Source of the DNA: an uncultured Parafilimonas sp.
GTDB taxonomy: Bacteria > Bacteroidota > Bacteroidia > Chitinophagales > Chitinophagaceae
Length of the DNA: 64,000 bases
Assembly: GCA_903882935.1 (NCBI GenBank)
Contig: CAIRZB010000097.1
Coordinates: forward strand, 1-64,000
Direction: 5' to 3'
Shown here: in pieces, positions 31,673-40,520 of the stretch
Layout of the letters: the number at the start of each line of letters is the position of its first letter
Numbering within the stretch: the stretch's first letter is position 1
Translations under genes and position numbers: made by a program
Notes under the pieces: generated by a model
Database searches by the model: none
Told to the model about the DNA's origin: nothing
The model's input: only the letters and a program-made list of their open reading frames with translations

Positions 31673-32332
31673 TTAAAGGAACCAATAGTCTTCGGCGTCC
31701 TTGGGGGCGGGTTTTTCTACCAGCACTTTGGTTATTTTGTTCAACTCGGCAACTTTGTGGTTAAAATCGCCCTGTAGTTGGTCGCGTATCTGTTGCAGGT
31801 TTTGCATCACCTCATCCATTTCATCGGGCAGCAACTCGGTAAAAACCTCCCTTAGCCGTTTGGCCAACATGGGCGATTTACCGTTGGTTGAAATCGCCAG
31901 CTTCAAATTGCCCTTGGTAACAATGCTGCCCAAATAATAATCACAAAGGGCTGGTTTGTCGGCTACATTTATCAGTTTGCCACGTTGTTTTGTATCGTTG
32001 CGTATTATTTCGCTTGTAGGTATATCGTTTACCGCGCATACCACAATATCAGCATCGTCAATAAATTCGGGTTTGTAGTCGCCCAGCACCAGTTGAACAT
32101 TGCTGTAAAATTTTACCGTATAAGCAAAATCAGGGTGTACCTCCCTGGCTACTGCCACAACCTTGGCACCCGGGGAATTGTTTACAATGGCCGTTAGCTT
32201 CTCCAATGCCACCAGCCCGCCGCCCACCAGCAGCACCCTCATCTCCTCCAACTTTAAAAACACCGGGAACAGGTGATTAACCTCCGCCCCCTCTGTTTTT
32301 ATGCTGTTGTTTGCTATACCGTTTGTAAACAT
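31673..32332 (-). CDS. Precorrin-2 dehydrogenase / sirohydrochlorin ferrochelatase
   Basis: 219 residues, the CysG N-terminal (Met8/SirC-like) type. The NAD-binding loop is LLVGGGLVALEKLTAI (about residues 35-50), with VCAVNDIP and IVTKGNLKLAISTNGKSPMLAKRLRE further on. Oxidises precorrin-2 to sirohydrochlorin and inserts iron, giving siroheme for CysI. Whether it keeps chelatase activity is not decided by length alone. It is the last gene of the cluster, 46 bases after cysI. Confidence 0.9.
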   Translation of the reverse strand: MFTNGIANNSIKTEGAEVNHLFPVFLKLEEMRVLLVGGGLVALEKLTAIVNNSPGAKVVAVAREVHPDFAYTVKFYSNVQLVLGDYKPEFIDDADIVVCAVNDIPTSEIIRNDTKQRGKLINVADKPALCDYYLGSIVTKGNLKLAISTNGKSPMLAKRLREVFTELLPDEMDEVMQNLQQIRDQLQGDFNHKVAELNKITKVLVEKPAPKDAEDYWFL

Positions 32333-32378: not shown

Positions 32379-34091
32379 TTAAATCGCCACCCCGCTGTCG
32401 CTAAACATCGCTTCGCGCATCACAAAATCGCCAAAAGCCTCTTTCTTTTTACGGTTGGCCACAAACTGCCCCAGCAGCCCATCCATCTCTGTCAATATTT
32501 CTTCCTCATTCAAGTTTTCCCGGTACAGCTTGTTCAGCCTGGTGCCAGCAACATTGGCACCCAAGTGCATATTATACCTTCCGTAAGCGGTGCCAACAAA
32601 ACCCACCTCGGCAATATAGGGCCTTGCACAGCCGTTAGGGCAGCCCGTCATGCGTATAATGATGCTTTCGTCGCTTACATTGTGTTTGGCCATCAGCTCG
32701 TCTATCTTAGTAATCAGTGATGGCAGATACCGTTGTGCTTCTGCCAATGCCAGCGGGCAGGTATTAAATGCCACACAAGCCATTGCCTGTTTGCGCACAT
32801 TGCTTGCCTTATCTGTGTTTTGGAGTACCCCGCAGCGGGTTAAAATTTCATCAATGGCTTTTTTGTCTTTATTGGCAATGTTTCCGATGATAATGTTTTG
32901 GTTGGCCGTAAAAATAAAATCGGCCTTTTTAGTTTTGGCAATCTCCAAAAACGCCGTTTTAAACTGCACCGTTTCATTGTCAAGCACGCGGCCATTTTCA
33001 ACAAAAGCTGTGTAATACCATTTTCCTTCATGGTTTTTTAGCCATCCATAATCGTCGCTGCGCTGGGTAAGCACCGCAGTTTTTGGCTTGGCAAAAACCA
33101 GCCCGGTCCTTTTCTCCACCTCGGCCTTAAACGTGTCAATACCCATCCGCTTAATGGTATATTTCAAACGGGAAAGTTTCCGGTCGCTGCGGTTACCATA
33201 ATCCCTTTGCACCGTGGCAATTTCGTATACCACCTTAAGGGCGTCTTCTTTGGCCACATAACCCAGCACAATGCCCAATTTGGGGTAGGTTTCTGCATTA
33301 CCATGCGTGGCACCCAAACCCCCGCCTGCAGCTATGTTAAAACCGGTTAGCACGTTGTTTTCAATTATGGCAATCAGCCCCACGTCGTTGGTAAAAACAT
33401 CCACATCATTATAGGGTGGTATGGCTATGGCTACTTTAAACTTTCTGGGCAGGTAGCGGTTTTCGTACATGGGGTCTTCTTCGTTTACCTCTGCCAACTT
33501 TTCTTCATCCAACCACACTTCGTAGTAAGCCCTTGTTTTGGGCAGCAGCAAGGTGCTTATTTTATCGGCATAACCATACACTTCCTCGTGTATGGGGCTT
33601 GTTTTGGGATGGGCCGTTGCCAACACATTCCTGTTAACATCTCCGCAAGCCGCAATTGAATCCAGCTTCATCAAATTAAAGGCACTGATGGTAGGTTTGA
33701 TGTGCCCTTTTAATATGCCGTGCAACTGCACAGTTTGGCGGGTAGTTATTTTTATAACCCCTGTGCTATGTTCTTGGGTTATTTCATGCAATGCTTCCCA
33801 TTGCTCTGGGGCTAAATAGCCACCTGGCAGGCGCAGCCGTATCATAAAACTGTACAAGCGCTCCAATTTTTTTGTAGCCCGTTCCTCCCGCCTGTCGCGG
33901 TCATCCTGCATGTACATGCCATGGAATTTTACCAGCGACTGGTCATCCTCCCGTATAGCACCTGTGTGCTCGTCACCCAGGCTTTCTTTCAGCGTTCCGC
34001 GCAGGCCCTTGCTGGCTTTTTTTATTCTTTCCACCGGTGACTCCGCCGCCGGCTTGCCTTGGTTTTTATTACTATCCTGATTGTTTGCCAC
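32379..34091 (-). CDS. cysI: Assimilatory sulfite reductase hemoprotein
   Basis: 570 residues. The siroheme/[4Fe-4S] ligand cysteines are C439 and C445 (CVAFNTC) and C484 and C488 (CPNGC), the order Cys-x5-Cys...Cys-x3-Cys shared by sulfite and nitrite reductases. The two nitrite/sulfite reductase ferredoxin-like half domains are at about residues 60-130 and 340-400. Reduces sulfite to sulfide with six electrons. The neighbouring cysJ and siroheme genes favour NADPH-dependent sulfite reduction over nitrite reduction. Confidence 0.95.
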   Translation of the reverse strand: MANNQDSNKNQGKPAAESPVERIKKASKGLRGTLKESLGDEHTGAIREDDQSLVKFHGMYMQDDRDRREERATKKLERLYSFMIRLRLPGGYLAPEQWEALHEITQEHSTGVIKITTRQTVQLHGILKGHIKPTISAFNLMKLDSIAACGDVNRNVLATAHPKTSPIHEEVYGYADKISTLLLPKTRAYYEVWLDEEKLAEVNEEDPMYENRYLPRKFKVAIAIPPYNDVDVFTNDVGLIAIIENNVLTGFNIAAGGGLGATHGNAETYPKLGIVLGYVAKEDALKVVYEIATVQRDYGNRSDRKLSRLKYTIKRMGIDTFKAEVEKRTGLVFAKPKTAVLTQRSDDYGWLKNHEGKWYYTAFVENGRVLDNETVQFKTAFLEIAKTKKADFIFTANQNIIIGNIANKDKKAIDEILTRCGVLQNTDKASNVRKQAMACVAFNTCPLALAEAQRYLPSLITKIDELMAKHNVSDESIIIRMTGCPNGCARPYIAEVGFVGTAYGRYNMHLGANVAGTRLNKLYRENLNEEEILTEMDGLLGQFVANRKKKEAFGDFVMREAMFSDSGVAI

Positions 34092-34487: not shown

Positions 34488-36206
34488 CTAATACACATCC
34501 TTATGGTACCTGCCTGCTTCTTTTAAATTCTGCAAATAGCCTTTGGCTTCGGTTTTGTTGATGTCTTTTTCAGCTGCGATGATGTTTATGAGCGCATCTT
34601 CCACATCCACACTCATGGGGTCTTTCGCCCCACAGATGTAAACATTAGCACCCTGCTCCAGCCATTGGAACAGTTCCACACTTTGTTGCAGCATTCGGTG
34701 CTGAACATATACCTTTTGCTGCTGGTCGCGGCTGAAGGCAGTATTTAACTTGGTAAGCACGCCCGTTTCCATAAAGCTCTGCAACTCCGTTTGGTATAGA
34801 AAATCGGTCACAAAATGCTGGTCGCCAAAAAACAGCCAGTTGCGGCCGGTAGCGCTTTGCGCTTCACGCTCAAACAGGAATGAGCGGAACGGTGCGATAC
34901 CCGTACCTGGCCCTATCATTATGGTATCCGTTGCCGGTGCGGGTAATTTAAAACTGCTGTTCTTTTGCACGTAAAATTGTACCTTCTGCCCTTCTTCCAA
35001 CAACGACAAATAATCAGAGCATAAGCCGTAGCGGGTATGGCCATCCACATTAAACTTGCTGCGGCAAACTGTTACATGCACTTCGTTGCTGCCATGTGCC
35101 GCCGGAGAGGATGATACAGAATACAGCCTTGGCGCAACAGATTCGAGTATACCAACAAGCTGCTGCACATCAACCCCTTTGTCGGCCGGGTAAATACGCA
35201 ATAAGTCAACCAGATCCATCCTGATGGAAGGTATTTCCTTAGCCACCAGTTTAGCGTAGTGCTGTATAACGCGCTCCGGCATGTATTGGATGTTTACCTT
35301 TTTTGCAAAAAGGTCTACCGCTCTGTATGGTTGGTCCTTATAGCTTAGCAGCTTGTCAATGTCAGTATCCAGCAACTCCAGTATCTTGTCAACTGATGCG
35401 GCATTGTTCTCCGCAATTATGCCGATGGCATCGCCGGGTTCATATTCAACCTCTTCGTCCGTCGAAATTTCAATATGGTATGTTTCCTTTGCCGAGCCTT
35501 GGTCGTTCAGGTTTATGCTGGTGGTAACAACGCCGGTATAGTTTTTTTTACCCGTTTTGGCAGCACTTGCCTTTACCGGTGGCGCTGGGGCAAGATCGCT
35601 TGCAACATACGTAGCCTGCAGCAGCAGTTCATCAATCCATAAAGCCGCATCATCCTCAAAATCTGTGTCGCATTTTTTCAGCCCAATCAGGCGTTGCGCC
35701 CCTAGGGCGTTCAGCCTGCCGTCTATATCTTGGCCGGCTTGGCAAAACAAAGGGTACGAAGTATCGCCCAACGCCAGTACGCCATATTTAAGTTGGCCCA
35801 ACGAAAGTTCGTTTTGCATTAAATAATCGTAAAACTTTTTTGCGGCAGCAGGCGGCTCGCCGTCGCCTTGGGTGCTTATCACCACCAATAGGCAGCTCTC
35901 TTTTACAATATCAGTTACTTTGTATTGGTCAAGGCTTTTTAGCTTAGACTGAAGCCCTTGCTTTTTAAGCTTATTGGTAAAGTCAACAGCTACCTTTTTT
36001 GAGTTGCCTGATTCAGTTCCGTATACAATAGTGCAACCTGCCAGCGCTGATGTGGCCGCGCCTTTACCATTAGCGGACGGAGCAGCTACTGCATTGCCGC
36101 CAACTTCCATAAAAGCCGTAATAAACCCGTTCATCCACACTAATTCCTCCCGGGTGGCATCTTTTAATAAATCCCTAAGTGTTTTTAACTTCAGCTCAGC
36201 TAACAT
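34488..36206 (-). CDS. cysJ: NADPH-dependent sulfite reductase flavoprotein subunit
   Basis: 572 residues. The flavodoxin-like FMN domain is at about 55-205 (VYGTESGNSKKVA, STQGDGEPPAAA, LALGDTSYP). The FAD-binding domain follows (LYSVSSSPAAHG near 360) and then the NADPH domain (GPGTGIAPFRSF near 420, YICGAK near 515). The ending RYHKDVY is typical of CysJ. Passes electrons NADPH to FAD to FMN to the CysI heme. Transcribed before cysI in the same direction, but the two are separated by 396 bases of repeats. Confidence 0.95.
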   Translation of the reverse strand: MLAELKLKTLRDLLKDATREELVWMNGFITAFMEVGGNAVAAPSANGKGAATSALAGCTIVYGTESGNSKKVAVDFTNKLKKQGLQSKLKSLDQYKVTDIVKESCLLVVISTQGDGEPPAAAKKFYDYLMQNELSLGQLKYGVLALGDTSYPLFCQAGQDIDGRLNALGAQRLIGLKKCDTDFEDDAALWIDELLLQATYVASDLAPAPPVKASAAKTGKKNYTGVVTTSINLNDQGSAKETYHIEISTDEEVEYEPGDAIGIIAENNAASVDKILELLDTDIDKLLSYKDQPYRAVDLFAKKVNIQYMPERVIQHYAKLVAKEIPSIRMDLVDLLRIYPADKGVDVQQLVGILESVAPRLYSVSSSPAAHGSNEVHVTVCRSKFNVDGHTRYGLCSDYLSLLEEGQKVQFYVQKNSSFKLPAPATDTIMIGPGTGIAPFRSFLFEREAQSATGRNWLFFGDQHFVTDFLYQTELQSFMETGVLTKLNTAFSRDQQQKVYVQHRMLQQSVELFQWLEQGANVYICGAKDPMSVDVEDALINIIAAEKDINKTEAKGYLQNLKEAGRYHKDVY

Positions 36207-36289: not shown

Positions 36290-36385
36290 GATGTTGGTGT
36301 TTTGACCATCAAAGACTATCCCATTGGCATTTCGAATCTTTTATCGTCGTTGTTCTTGAAAACACCCAACAACGGCGAAGATTAC
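36290..36385. repeat. Hairpin repeat sharing its core with the 9772 element
   Basis: The core ATCTTttatcGTcGTTGTT...AACAACGGCGAAGAT folds into an imperfect stem around AAAACACCC. The GTTGTT/AAAACACCCAACAA/GGCGA parts match the inner stem of the element at 9772-9889. The cobA stop codon (36382-36384) lies inside the right arm. Confidence 0.65.
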
Positions 36386-37212
36386 AGCTTTTGGCCCGCT
36401 AGTAAACGCTGCCCCTGGCCTTGCAGCGGGGTAAAATAAGCACTCCGGTCTCCGCTATTCGGCAGCCAACTAAACTGTGGGTATAACCCGGCAACCCTAC
36501 CCATAATTACGAGCGAGGGGCTGGTAAATTGTGCATCACGCTGTCGTAGAATAAATTCTTCCAGCGTAAACAGGTGTACATGTTGGTGCGGGGTAGTGGC
36601 TTGCTCCACCACTGCAAAAGGCATGGTTGGCTCTGCGCCTGCCTGCAACAATTTTGACACGATGCTGTGCAGCGTGCTACCCGACATATAGAATACAAGT
36701 GTATCCTCAAACTTTGCAAGCTCTTGCCAAGCCTCATTGCTGATGGCTGCCGTTTGGTAGTACGTTAGAATGCGCACCCCTGTTGAATGGTTTCTTGCGG
36801 TTAGCGGAATGCCCGCATAGGCTGCGGCACCAGACACTGCGGTGATGCCCGGCACAAGCTCATAAGGAATGTTGGCGGCTACCAACGCTGCCAACTCATC
36901 TAAAATATTGGAGAATATAGTAACATCCCCACCCTTTAAACGCACAACGCTGGCATGGCGTTTGGCCAATTTAACCAGCATTTTGTTGATCTCTTCCTGT
37001 GGCTTGGATGCACCAGACCCACCCTGTTTTCCAACGGCAATAACTTGGGTGCTGGCATTCACATATTCAGCAATTATATCTTCCCCAACCAACCTGTCAG
37101 CCACCACCACATCAGCTGATTGCAATATTTTGGCGGCCTTTACGGTTAACAAACCCGGGTCGCCAGGCCCTGCGCCAACAAAAAAAACTTTACCCGGTAA
37201 CGTTATAGCCAT
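36382..37212 (-). CDS. cobA: Uroporphyrinogen-III C-methyltransferase
   Basis: 276 residues. The SAM-binding segment VFFVGAGPGDPGLLTVKAA is near residue 10, RLKGGDVTIF is near 80, and a Pro-Gly-Ile-Thr-Ala loop is near 115. Two methylations convert uroporphyrinogen III to precorrin-2, which the downstream dehydrogenase turns into siroheme. The single-function form together with the separate 219-residue enzyme replaces a fused CysG. The start at 37212 (MAITLPGKVFFVG) is preferred over 37230. Confidence 0.95.
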   Translation of the reverse strand: MAITLPGKVFFVGAGPGDPGLLTVKAAKILQSADVVVADRLVGEDIIAEYVNASTQVIAVGKQGGSGASKPQEEINKMLVKLAKRHASVVRLKGGDVTIFSNILDELAALVAANIPYELVPGITAVSGAAAYAGIPLTARNHSTGVRILTYYQTAAISNEAWQELAKFEDTLVFYMSGSTLHSIVSKLLQAGAEPTMPFAVVEQATTPHQHVHLFTLEEFILRQRDAQFTSPSLVIMGRVAGLYPQFSWLPNSGDRSAYFTPLQGQGQRLLAGQKL

Positions 37213-37305
37213 CTTTATCCTTTTATACAACCAATAGCCCTAAGCGAATGAATATGAAAATTTATAATACTAGCATTTTTCTTGGTTTAACCGCCCATGT
37301 ACCAA

Positions 37306-38022
37306 TTATGAACGCACATGCAGCCCGCACTCCTTGTTATTTTTATCTTCCCACCACCAACGGCCGGCTCGGAAATCTTCACCCGGCTTAATAGCCCTGG
37401 TACAAGGTGCGCAACCAATGCTTACAAAACCCTTGTTGTGCAAAGTGTTGTACGGTATATGGTTTTGGTATACAAAGGATGTTAACTTATCGGTATCCCA
37501 ATCCAACACCGGGTGGAACTTTATCAGTTGATTTGACTCATCCCATTCAATTTGTGGAAGGCCCTTCCTTTCTGGGGAATGCTCGGCACGCAGGCCTGTT
37601 ATCCATAATTCGTTGCCAGCCAAAGCACGCTTTAACGGCTCAACCTTGCGGATGTAACAGCAAGATTTACGCAACTGAATAGACTCATAAAATGCATTGG
37701 GGCCGTTGGCACCAATGTATTCCTGCAAATCTTCGTGCTGCGGATAGTAGGCTTTTATATGGGTATTGTACTTTTCGTTGGTTCTGCTCCACACATAATA
37801 AGTTTCGTCAAACAGCCTGCCCGTGTCAAGCGTAAATATTTCAATGGGTATATTGTTGGCGAGTATCATGTGTGCAATGGCCTGATCTTCCCAGCTAAAG
37901 CTGGTCGAAAAAACCACCTTACCGGGAAATTCGGCGGCAAGCACTCTTAATGCCTCCACCTCAGATAGCCCACTAATTTTGTCGGGTAATCTGTTTGCAT
38001 AATATTTAAGTTCCTGTGGCAT
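37306..38022 (-). CDS. cysH: Adenylyl-sulfate (APS) reductase
   Basis: 238 residues of the PP-loop reductase family. Two cysteine pairs, SCCYIRK and GCAPCTR, are the [4Fe-4S] ligands that mark the iron-sulfur type, which usually prefers APS to PAPS. The catalytic Cys is in the C-terminal ECGLH. Converts activated sulfate plus thioredoxin thiols to sulfite. A sulfurylase (CysD/N) is not in the window. The start at 38022 (MPQELKYYANRL) is chosen; the longer frame to 38112 would overlap the leader ORF. It is first in the cluster and preceded by a Cys-rich leader. Confidence 0.93.
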   Translation of the reverse strand: MPQELKYYANRLPDKISGLSEVEALRVLAAEFPGKVVFSTSFSWEDQAIAHMILANNIPIEIFTLDTGRLFDETYYVWSRTNEKYNTHIKAYYPQHEDLQEYIGANGPNAFYESIQLRKSCCYIRKVEPLKRALAGNELWITGLRAEHSPERKGLPQIEWDESNQLIKFHPVLDWDTDKLTSFVYQNHIPYNTLHNKGFVSIGCAPCTRAIKPGEDFRAGRWWWEDKNNKECGLHVRS

Positions 38023-38208
38023 ATTTGTTTGAGTAATTTTTAGGTAAAAAGGACAATTGAAAACGTTGGTGGATTTGCTGTATGGCCGCGTTGTATTAAC
38101 AACAGCAAGCACAGCAGTTGACAGGTTTACGACAACAAGCGTTGTTTATGGAGATAGTAAACGAGGTAAAGATTTTCATTAGTCCACCAAATTAGTGGCG
38201 TAAAAGTA
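38023..38208 (-). promoter_or_regulatory. Candidate cysteine-responsive leader of cysH
   Basis: A -7-like box TACTTTTA (38201-38208 on the complement) would start a leader of roughly 170 bases that carries the Cys-rich leader ORF at 38096-38179. Four five-base segments can pair alternately: ACAAC (38141-38145 complement), GTTGT (38132-38136), GTTGT (38099-38103, in the last Cys codons) and ACAAC (38090-38094). In addition TTGGTGGA before the leader ORF (38183-38190), which includes its GGTGG ribosome site, is complementary to TCCACCAA (38066-38073) near cysH. No U-run terminator is visible, so control could be of translation, of Rho access, or of a weak terminator. Confidence 0.6.
38096..38179 (-). 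CDS. Cysteine-rich leader peptide upstream of cysH
   Basis: A 27-codon ORF, too short for usual gene calling. It starts with ATG five bases after a GGTGG ribosome-binding-site-like sequence and ends at TAA. Cys residues are at positions 15, 16, 22, 23, 25, 26 and 27; the last 12 residues are CRKPVNCCACCC. Seven cysteines in a short ORF before the first gene of a cysteine-supply pathway is the pattern of ribosome-mediated attenuators: low Cys-tRNA would stall the ribosome at the run of Cys codons and change which RNA stem forms. I am confident of the reading frame; the regulatory role is inferred. Confidence 0.7.
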   Translation of the reverse strand: MKIFTSFTISINNACCRKPVNCCACCC

Positions 38209-38342
38209 TAATAGAAATATGAGTTCACCAAAAAATTACAGGCTCATAATACAAATTTCTACTATATGAATTCCTACTAAAATGATAGGAATATAAAAAG
38301 AATGCTACCTGCAATATTCAAAATGGGTGCTATATTAGCCAT

Positions 38343-40520
38343 ATGAAGCATTTTTTCACAGGCTTGGCGTTACTGGCTGCCAGCATTAATTGGTGTATGG
38401 CACAAACTATTAAGTTAAAAAAAGGCATGGTTATCACACAGTCAGTTACCATAGCCAAAGGCAACTACACGCTTGATGCCGATACCAGTTTACAGAAGCC
38501 GTTGATAATTATTCGAGGCAAAAATATTACAGTTGATTTTAACGAAGCAGTATTGCAGGGTGCTGCCAATGCCGCATTGCCTAATCAATTTTATGGGCTG
38601 GCGGTGAGGATTGAAAAAGGTTCTTCCAACATTACCATCCTACATGCCAACATACATGGTTACAAAGTTGCCTTGCTGGCCGATAGCGTTGCAGGGCTGC
38701 AGGTATATAACAGCAACCTGAGTTACAATTACAGGCAGCAATTACACAGCAACTGGCAGCGGGAAGATGTTAGCGACTGGATGAGCTACCACCATAACGA
38801 AAACGGTGAATGGCTTCGCTATGGCGCTGGCATTTACCTAAGCAATTGCAGCCATGCAGTTATAAAAGGCAACACTATAACGGGGGGCCAATGTGGTTTG
38901 ATGATGACGAGGTGCAATGAGGCCGATGTATACAATAATAACTTTACTTTCAACTCAGGCCTGGGCATTGGTATGTACCGCAGCAGCCACAACAAGATAT
39001 ACCAAAACAACCTTGACTTTAATGTGAGGGGATACAGTGATTCAATGTATAACCGTGGGCAGGATAGCGGCGGTATACTGGTTTTTGAACAAAGCAGCGA
39101 CAATGTATTTGCTTATAATTCGGTTACGCACAGCGGCGACGGCTTTTTTCTCTGGGCCGGGCAACACACCATGGATACCGGGGAGGGCGGCTGTAATGAT
39201 AACATAATTTATAGCAACGATTTTTCCTTTGCGCCCACCAACGGTATTGAAGTTACATTTAGCAGGAATGATATTGAGAAAAATATAATTAATGACTGCG
39301 ACAATGGCATTTGGGGTGGGTATAGTTATGGTACGTATATATATGGTAACACTATACAAGGAAATAAAACTGGCATAGCCATTGAGCATGGGCAGAATAA
39401 CACCATAACTTTTAACCGGTTTGCCAATAATAAAACCGCCATTAAACTATGGTCCAGGGTAACCCAGCCTGCCGATTGGGGTTATGCAAAATACCGCGAC
39501 ACCCAAAGCAAAAATTACAAGATTTACTCGAATGAGTTTACTGGAGAAAATATTGTATATGATGTAATGGGCACTGACAGTGTTTGGTTTGGCGGAAACC
39601 ACAAATATGCCAGCAAACAAATATTTAAAACCGGGGAAAGATTAACCCGGTTAGACACCAGCAAAGAAAACGGTTATGTTGATTTTACAGCAGACGGGAT
39701 TTCTGCTGCAGAAAAAGTTGTATCAACATTGCCGCGTACAGCATTTAACACAATGCACTACCCTGCGGGCCGCGGACAGATGCGTATAACCGAATGGGGG
39801 TCTTACAATTTTGCTTATCCCCTATTATGGCTGAAAAAAGTTGATAGTGCCGGATTATATCACTTTGAAGTGCTGCACCCAAATGGCGTATGGAACATAA
39901 AATCCACAAAAGGGCTTACGATAGTGTGTCAATATCAAGACACTATTTTGGCAAAAGCTGATTCTTCGATTCAACAAAGAGGTATACAACTAACTTACAA
40001 AGGCGGTTCTTTTAATGATGAATTGGGCCGACGGCACGCATCTGGCACGCCTTATACCTTCAGCTATGATGAATTTGATACGCACGCCGAATGGAAAATT
40101 CAATATTACAAGTGGGATACATTACACAACCCCAACAAAGACTATGGCACCTTCCTGCAAAGCTTACAGATGCCCTTTTATACAACCCAAACCAAAAAAT
40201 TGGACTATACTTGGTGGGGGGCTGTAGGCAAAGGCTTGCCAGCCGACTCGTTTGCAACGGTTGCTGAAAGTGTGATGGAACTACCCGAAAACAATTATGC
40301 AATAAGTATTACAGCATACGACATGGTAAAACTTTTTATTGATGGAAAACCTGTAATTGATGCGTGGGACGCATCCAACTCCAATCTGGACGAGAATACA
40401 AACCACAAAACGCATGTTGCACTAAGGGGCGGCAAACATACCTTTAAAATAATACAGGCCGCCAACAGCGGATTGGCCGCATTGATGTTTTATATTAAAC
40501 CGGAGAAATTTGACAAATAG
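38343..40520 (+). CDS. Secreted right-handed beta-helix protein
   Basis: 725 residues: signal peptide (about 1-20, INWCMAQ), then a parallel beta-helix region (about 60-420) with the repeating pattern of NosD-like proteins. Examples are YNNNFTFN, IYQNNLDFNV, YGNTIQGNK and the frequent NTI/NNF turns. The C-terminal 110 residues (from about WWGAVGKGLP) form a PA14- or carbohydrate-binding-like beta domain, with FIDGKPVIDAWD. The function may be polysaccharide binding or cleavage; no catalytic residues can be assigned. No operon partner. Confidence 0.75.
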   Translation: MKHFFTGLALLAASINWCMAQTIKLKKGMVITQSVTIAKGNYTLDADTSLQKPLIIIRGKNITVDFNEAVLQGAANAALPNQFYGLAVRIEKGSSNITILHANIHGYKVALLADSVAGLQVYNSNLSYNYRQQLHSNWQREDVSDWMSYHHNENGEWLRYGAGIYLSNCSHAVIKGNTITGGQCGLMMTRCNEADVYNNNFTFNSGLGIGMYRSSHNKIYQNNLDFNVRGYSDSMYNRGQDSGGILVFEQSSDNVFAYNSVTHSGDGFFLWAGQHTMDTGEGGCNDNIIYSNDFSFAPTNGIEVTFSRNDIEKNIINDCDNGIWGGYSYGTYIYGNTIQGNKTGIAIEHGQNNTITFNRFANNKTAIKLWSRVTQPADWGYAKYRDTQSKNYKIYSNEFTGENIVYDVMGTDSVWFGGNHKYASKQIFKTGERLTRLDTSKENGYVDFTADGISAAEKVVSTLPRTAFNTMHYPAGRGQMRITEWGSYNFAYPLLWLKKVDSAGLYHFEVLHPNGVWNIKSTKGLTIVCQYQDTILAKADSSIQQRGIQLTYKGGSFNDELGRRHASGTPYTFSYDEFDTHAEWKIQYYKWDTLHNPNKDYGTFLQSLQMPFYTTQTKKLDYTWWGAVGKGLPADSFATVAESVMELPENNYAISITAYDMVKLFIDGKPVIDAWDASNSNLDENTNHKTHVALRGGKHTFKIIQAANSGLAALMFYIKPEKFDK

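Follow-up and report, generated by a model that had tools for sequence, protein, structure and literature searches.

Upstream of cysH in an uncultured Parafilimonas sp. lies a short open reading frame (ORF) that closes on a cluster of Cys codons, and ORFs of this kind recur before the cysH genes of related genomes, where as a class they look like a selected feature, present more often than chance would give. The comparative and folding data gathered around this ORF, which was found in the stretch of DNA analysed here (hereafter the window, 64,000 nucleotides of one contig), suggest that translation of the encoded leader peptide (38096-38179) probably monitors charged Cys-tRNA and thereby governs cysH, and probably the later genes too, through a Rho-type switch resembling that of the tna operon. 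The parts of this proposal are not equally probable: Cys-tRNA is very likely to be the signal, a response in which low cysteine turns cysH on is likely, and Rho is put forward tentatively as the terminating factor. A full-text literature search, with subscription papers mostly outside its reach, returned no title or abstract opening on Cys leaders in Bacteroidota, and we concluded that a putative leader-peptide regulator based on Cys codons, a type known in mycobacteria, is new for Bacteroidota so far as that search showed.

Re-reading of the sequence recovered the ORF exactly as it had been described from the letters alone (the sequence-only reading): on the minus strand, with 27 codons, an ATG start and a TAA stop, it encodes MKIFTSFTISINNACCRKPVNCCACCC, in which Cys accounts for seven of the final 13 residues, and its stop lies 73 nt from the cysH ATG (38022). 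The four 5-base segments pointed out in that reading (ACAAC at 38141-38145, GTTGT at 38132-38136, GTTGT at 38099-38103 and ACAAC at 38090-38094) and the 8-base reverse complements at 38066-38073 and 38183-38190 are equally exact, and the profile matches in Table 1 agree with its description of cysH as the head of a sulfite/siroheme cluster. The GGTGG upstream of the ORF is a putative ribosome site in that reading, and Shine-Dalgarno sites are rarely relied on by Bacteroidota. No Pfam or NCBIfam model matched the leader at an E-value of 0.001, and the whole window gave no Rfam match at the gathering score, riboswitch and leader families included. The promoter-like site of the leader has its intergenic region in common with a divergently oriented gene whose product is a NosD/beta-helix protein carrying a PA14 domain (38343-40520, plus strand). 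In the source genome, cysD lies on a contig separate from that of cysH (contig C74, locus L317), and no Cys leader was found at that gene; by eye, it sits behind an adenylylsulfate-kinase-like frame, and in many relatives cysD is located directly 3′ of cysH.

Table 1. Coordinates of the cysH leader region and of the sulfur genes downstream of it in the window
Feature	Positions	Strand	Basis
-33 promoter-like element TTTG	38229..38232	-	consensus match
-7 promoter-like element TACTTTTA (consensus TAnnTTTG); its end lies 21 nt upstream of the leader ATG	38201..38208	-	consensus match
Cys-rich leader ORF MKIFTSFTISINNACCRKPVNCCACCC plus stop	38096..38179	-	sequence
First Cys-Cys codon pair, codons 15-16, overlapping segment 2 (GTTGT)	38132..38137	-	sequence
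Terminal cluster of putative control codons, Cys-Cys-Ala-Cys-Cys-Cys, codons 22-27, abutting the stop	38099..38116	-	sequence
Predicted hairpin over the leader stop; 5′ arm formed by the terminal CCACCC codons; contains the segment 3:4 pair	38076..38116	-	fold
Spacer from leader stop to cysH, 73 nt, pyrimidine-rich, G-poor (27% C, 8% G)	38023..38095	-	composition
cysH, (phospho)adenylylsulfate reductase	37306..38022	-	PF01507; NF002537 above cut-off
Uroporphyrinogen-III C-methyltransferase, siroheme branch	36382..37230	-	TIGR01469, NF004790 above cut-off
CysJ-like sulfite reductase flavoprotein	34488..36206	-	TIGR01931, E 2e-164, below cut-off
CysI sulfite reductase hemoprotein	32379..34091	-	TIGR02041, NF010029 above cut-off
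Siroheme synthase N-terminal domain, precorrin-2 dehydrogenase type	31673..32332	-	TIGR01470 above cut-off

That the Cys pattern rather than the DNA is kept in relatives, a point on which the earlier proposal depends, is borne out by a survey of the family. Relatives of cysH were present in 94 of 147 genomes and 68 of 100 genera; the 87 strong ones were examined, seven genomes with weak matches were left out, and three loci (L002-L004) were omitted as duplicates of others (L088-L090). A Cys tail was defined as at least three Cys among the last eight codons before a stop, no more than 320 nt upstream of the gene, and transcription units (TUs) were called by our own ORF rules. Such tails precede cysH on the sense strand at 36 of the 87 family loci, that of the source genome included, as against 9 of 87 on the antisense strand, and the leader set was reduced to 35 because the tail of one locus (L059) falls in a peroxiredoxin-cysH stretch. 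A tail is found at 34 of the 60 family cysH genes that seem to open a TU and at 3 of 213 other first genes, taken from these and the named loci (Fisher p 1.4e-23; since the loci are related, this and the other p-values are too small and overstate certainty), and the figure for cysH genes internal to an operon is 2 of 27. A comparison of all 20 amino acids between TU-first cysH genes and controls gave a 33.7-fold enrichment per kb for Cys and nothing comparable for any other residue, Gln coming second at 5.0-fold (5/60, p 0.014) and Phe reaching 1.6-fold (p 0.005).

Inspection by eye indicates that the relatives' leaders keep their Cys residues while the remaining peptide varies by locus, the DNA being unconserved, and the 35 family leaders differ in both length and Cys spacing, with tails such as MSQSPSYFTSVCCCNKLALICCCMQ (L088), MIINTNTTSMIFTCCNSCCCC (L014), ...NTQCCCCCC (L018) and MKNLAHIKYICCCCC (L020). 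The first of these belongs to the closest cysH (77% identity), on the same stretch as the named locus L177 of Chitinophagaceae bacterium DXS. The final Cys abuts the stop in 24 of the 35 leaders, is one codon off in eight and two codons off in three, a placement that the search rule itself favours. The leaders hold a mean of 5.5 Cys codons, 139 of them TGT and 53 TGC.

The TTTG/TAnnTTTG promoter consensus comes from work on Bacteroides and Flavobacterium. The window carries TTTG-20 nt-TACTTTTA, which agrees at nine of ten consensus positions, and sites of the form TTTG-N17-22-TAnnTTTG scoring at least 9/10 occur upstream of the leader at 27 of the 35 loci, against 2.1 expected from shuffles. 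This arrangement puts the probable start of transcription a short way upstream of the leader, and the distance from the -7 box to the ATG predicts a short 5′ leader. A search for a sigma-70 promoter at 37900-38400 found none, the site present there being of the Bacteroidota type.

Folding of 24 nt on each side of the leader stop, compared with shuffled downstream sequence, predicts a hairpin over the stop codon, which in the window has an energy of -16.5 kcal/mol (z -2.57). Over the cysH class the excess is modest, with a mean z of -0.76 and many members without the hairpin (Stouffer -4.47, n=35), and for the leaders of O-acetylhomoserine/serine sulfhydrylase (OAHS) genes described below the corresponding value is Stouffer -8.26 (n=18). 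Beyond the hairpin, the C-minus-G value of the class spacers is 0.127 (n=33 of 35, two spacers shorter than 30 nt having been omitted), whereas 41 upstream regions used as controls, which contain promoters, give 0.022 (p 1.7e-9); it is 0.017 upstream of leaderless cysH genes (n=51, some of them inside operons). The modelled unpaired fraction of the spacer is 0.55 in the window and 0.51 as the mean of the 35 loci. Composition of this kind makes 38023-38095 a candidate Rho-loading region, although the C-richness could instead reflect translation initiation or some other constraint.

A classical attenuator of the trp type, with mutually exclusive stems and an intrinsic terminator before cysH, seems unlikely to be at work here. 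The leader does contain control codons for the amino acid of the pathway, and the alternative stems put forward in the sequence-only reading survive in part: the 1:2 and 3:4 hairpins of the four segments are contained in the predicted fold of the window, where segment 2 pairs with 38141-38145, the stop hairpin that includes 3:4 recurs in relatives (Stouffer -4.5), and hairpins within the leader show a weak class excess (Stouffer -3.2). Against chance the pairings stand out only weakly, the window's leader taken as a whole folding with a z of -1.35, with 24 of 200 shuffles at least as stable. The pairings that had been singled out are, however, unconserved as a class, and the 8-base link proposed between the putative leader ribosome site and the spacer has to be given up as a class feature (mean z -0.16, Stouffer -0.91, n=33), the exceptions with strong pairing between 5′ end and spacer being the nearest relative, L088 (z -3.5), and L041 (z -3.4). 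Moreover, no intrinsic or U-tract terminator was found before cysH in the window by a terminator search that included a home-made rule; under this rule, terminator-like sites number 7/35 in the cysH class against 2.9 expected, and 8/18 in the OAHS class against 0.9, where intrinsic terminators may be used.

Translational attenuation, in which the leader RNA would mask the cysH start and a stalled ribosome would expose it, appears quite unlikely. Distances of tens of nt between leader and gene would permit such control, and across the class the openness of the cysH start falls slightly short of that given by shuffled spacers (Stouffer -1.65), a tendency in the direction of sequestration in some members; a modelled stall raises the openness of the start by more than 0.2 at three of the 35 loci (L020, L032 and L045), with L006 just below this value. 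Against this, 32 of the 35 loci gain 0.2 or less, the start in the window is modelled as 0.80 unpaired both with and without a stalled ribosome and exceeds its shuffled-spacer counterparts in openness (z 2.34), and the Cys codons pair only weakly with the spacer taken as a whole (Stouffer -1.9, n=35).

The Cys codons at the stop, the hairpin over it and a spacer rich in C, taken together with the lack of a terminator and with a cysH start that is open, favour termination controlled by a stalled ribosome, and probably of the Rho type. In this process, RNA polymerase would start just before the leader and, with ample cysteine, the ribosome would pass the Cys codons and depart at the stop, whereupon the stop hairpin would re-form and most transcripts would end early in the ribosome-free, C-rich and G-poor spacer, probably via Rho. 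Under scarce cysteine, the ribosome would be held on the Cys codons by the stop, keeping the hairpin open and covering the start of the spacer, and the held ribosome would let RNA polymerase reach cysH. The geometry would thus be tna-like, with Cys-tRNA starvation as the cause of the stall. Were the ribosome to stall at the first Cys pair, the stop hairpin could still form, so that switching would depend on the Cys codons further on. Comparison of loci shows the leader of Cys codons and where it sits, as well as the promoter-like site, an excess of hairpins and the biased make-up of the spacer. If the proposal is true, a whole lineage would run its sulfur assimilation through ribosomes on tiny frames of Cys codons.

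A second group of Cys leaders emerged from the control genes, the first 27 of which, taken blind to gene identity, included three Cys tails, two of them before OAHS. Cys tails were found in 18 of 40 OAHS upstream regions, and the source genome itself holds, besides the Cys-codon leader claimed for cysH, another at its OAHS gene (L284) with the sequence MKKAPMIAAILLAIYDGCCCIC and a stop 105 nt before the ATG. Several OAHS leaders terminate in Cys-Met-Pro-stop, and their RNA is able to form UGUAUGCC-GUAA-GGCAUACA, with the stop codon in the loop; the hairpin sequence is absent from the leader of the source genome. In the OAHS alignment, a UAUGCC-short loop-GGCAUA hairpin is strongly conserved and overlaps the leader stop codon. 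RNAalifold applied to 21 chosen OAHS leader sequences returned only four pairs, all of them with one or more two-sided changes, and a covariation term of 0.06, a thin support explained by the hairpin being mostly invariant, with a few two-sided changes. At five loci (L259, L326, L282, L017 and L324) the equivalent hairpin lies in another frame or is read through, CRKA and MPQGI being readings of it in some genomes, which suggests that it is the RNA hairpin, not the end of the peptide, that is kept, and that Met-Pro would be a consequence of the RNA rather than a peptide motif.

These differing frames bear on nascent-peptide arrest, whereby free cysteine, sulfide or redox state would act through the peptide itself to stall the ribosome, in the manner of TnaC. 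The location of the Cys cluster at the stop, as in arrest at the release stage, and the Cys-Met-Pro endings of several OAHS leaders would fit such a process, but the reading of the hairpin in other frames in some genomes, together with the lack, Cys aside, of residues evidently conserved by eye, makes it improbable. That the ORF encodes a functional small Cys-rich protein (for metal binding, as a thiol store or as a modified peptide) which by chance precedes cysH is very improbable: seven Cys in 27 residues would suit it, but length, Cys spacing and other residues are variable, no Pfam or NCBIfam model matches, and the conserved trait is a placement close behind a promoter-like site and ahead of sulfur genes. 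Chance runs of Cys in one frame of TGCTGC-type repeats, although TGYTGYTGYTRA is frequent (94 places in the source genome against 24 for the reversed pattern), can be rejected for the class, given the contrast between cysH and other first genes and the mere 1.1-fold and 1.2-fold enrichments of Val and Leu, which are the other reading frames of TGT/TGC repeats. As a marker of leaders, TGYTGYTGYTRA or TGYTGYTGYTGYTRA proved unspecific, being found in 137 of 144 family genomes.

The putative cysteine-sensing leader before OAHS is in places combined with a further RNA element. Rfam searches placed a SAM-I riboswitch at 13 of 20 OAHS loci, at all six Pedobacter/Mucilaginibacter leader loci (L336, L351, L344, L346, L349 and L352) and at further ones. 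In those six, the gaps from the end of the aptamer to the leader ATG are 6, 7, 7, 7, 8 and 8 nt. In ten family loci (L257, L261, L263, L267, L273, L278, L281, L282, L286 and L327) it lies upstream by 140-313 nt of the first ATG that could open the leader, and in L261 an apparent terminator, judged by eye, stands between SAM-I and leader; two OAHS loci without a Cys leader (L258 and L266) also carry it. A match at L325, 1610 nt from the gene, was left out, and no SAM-I was detected by Rfam at the OAHS locus of the source genome or in the window. With a spacing of 6-8 nt, a single transcript might respond both to methionine (SAM) and to cysteine status. Downstream of the four Pedobacter OAHS leaders (L344, L346, L349 and L352), GGAAGG, a hairpin of changing sequence and then UACGC recur, as judged by eye.

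OAHS is present in 21 of the 28 named genomes, with a Cys leader in seven (two Mucilaginibacter, four Pedobacter and bacterium DXS), an ambiguous case in Sphingobacterium haloxyli and in Hymenobacter nivis, and no Cys leader in the other 12, namely Sphingobacterium humi, Parapedobacter, Paradesertivirga, Spirosoma, Algoriphagus, two Draconibacterium, Mariniradius, Cecembia, Dyadobacter and two Flavobacterium. The sulfite-reductase operon of Pedobacter and Mucilaginibacter shows a Cys tail at 3 of 9 loci (L188, L190 and L206), others having one or two Cys. Outside the family, 2 of 22 cysH loci (L159 and L166) carry a tail among the nearest by similarity (of the 26 new loci examined, 22 lie outside the family), and among the matches listed for the 80 named loci, most cysH operons from outside Chitinophagaceae lack a Cys tail at the first gene. 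Frames rich in Met and Cys also occur upstream of cysH in Flavobacterium limnosediminis and F. humi; at the two Flavobacterium loci L220 and L222, two such short frames follow one another, NMMMCMCC.. and ..MMMCCMRNFARGRL.., and the residues past the cluster are similar in both species. As a class-wide pattern, Cys-Met-Cys-Cys-Cys was rejected, since its occurrences in 59 of 198 genomes lie mostly inside larger frames, about 7 of 30 examined loci being leader-like by eye. Four loci of the class genomes (L362, L363, L385 and L372) display Cys/Met-rich frames such as ..MCCMCCCCCMC, ..VTCMCCCCCCTY and ..ICCCMCCCC, and the genes after them resemble, by eye, those for homoserine O-acetyltransferase, homoserine dehydrogenase and an OsmC protein.

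No Cys tail was recognised at 26 of the 60 TU-first cysH loci, at least one of which, L011, does have a Cys-rich frame that fails the tail rule. Among the family loci of at least 5 kb (56 of 87), an Rrf2-type gene, assigned by similarity to one protein that was itself named by eye, lies near cysH in 18 of 38 leaderless loci and in 1 of 18 with a tail, L059 still being counted with the latter. Leader and Rrf2 gene are not strictly exclusive, as the named locus L181 combines a Cys-rich frame with a divergent Rrf2-like gene. At the family loci L065-L073 and L077, which have no Cys leader, genes resembling OsmC, Rrf2 and peroxiredoxin genes (by eye) precede cysH. From these distributions, Chitinophagales and Sphingobacteriales might possess a cysteine-responsive leader-peptide regulon covering cysH, OAHS and in places the sulfite reductase operon (in other class genomes, also metX- and homoserine-dehydrogenase-like genes), many relatives having an Rrf2-type gene beside cysH instead, and in Pedobacter and Mucilaginibacter the OAHS leader might be fused to SAM-I so that SAM would gate translation of the cysteine sensor. 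This wider picture is possible rather than probable; if it is true, the aptamer fused to a Cys leader would amount to a compact switch with two inputs.

Attenuation has reportedly been the subject of a comparative study by Lopatovskaya in 2010. In Bacteroidetes, the Bacteroid-trp RNA (RF01692) is a candidate cis-regulatory element with Trp codons located before tryptophan genes; it concerns tryptophan rather than cysteine, and the window has no Rfam match. Attenuation by leader peptides before amino-acid operons has been described in Flavobacterium psychrophilum (PMC9723704), which belongs to the same phylum, and the section of that paper on 5′ cis-regulatory elements includes neither a Cys leader nor cysH. 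In the uORFC-8-2 motif (PMC8632094), the upstream ORF has two adjacent Cys codons, most often at positions 14 and 15, and stands before cysS together with a U-run terminator; ribosome-mediated attenuation has been proposed for it. Adjacent Cys codons are common to this motif and the window, which differs in having seven Cys, no terminator and cysH instead of cysS.

In the tnaC-tnaA system of Escherichia coli, it is tryptophan and the nascent peptide that stall the ribosome. The likeness to the leader described here is that a ribosome held at the leader end would shield a Rho-loading region beside the stop, and the difference is that a stall on hungry codons is proposed instead of one due to tryptophan and the nascent peptide. 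The Cys-run leader peptides of Actinobacteria are said, in the title of a 2020 study by Canestrari, to have a leaderless start. The leader of the window differs from the actinobacterial ones in belonging to Bacteroidota, in its predicted short 5′ leader as against a leaderless start, in its stop hairpin, and in a gene set formed by cysH, siroheme and sulfite reductase genes and OAHS, in places with a SAM-I aptamer. The anatomy of those leaders, as given by Seliverstov 2005 (PMC1262725), comprises runs of Cys codons near the stop of a short ORF before cys genes, with no conserved terminator and with polypyrimidine motifs before the operon, and a tna-like control by Rho was suggested there, with tna attenuation named as the comparison, in what its authors termed a weak prediction. 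The window leader is alike in its short ORF, its Cys run near the stop, its position before sulfur genes, the lack of a conserved terminator and the pyrimidines, a likeness to the mycobacterial anatomy that perhaps reflects an independent origin.
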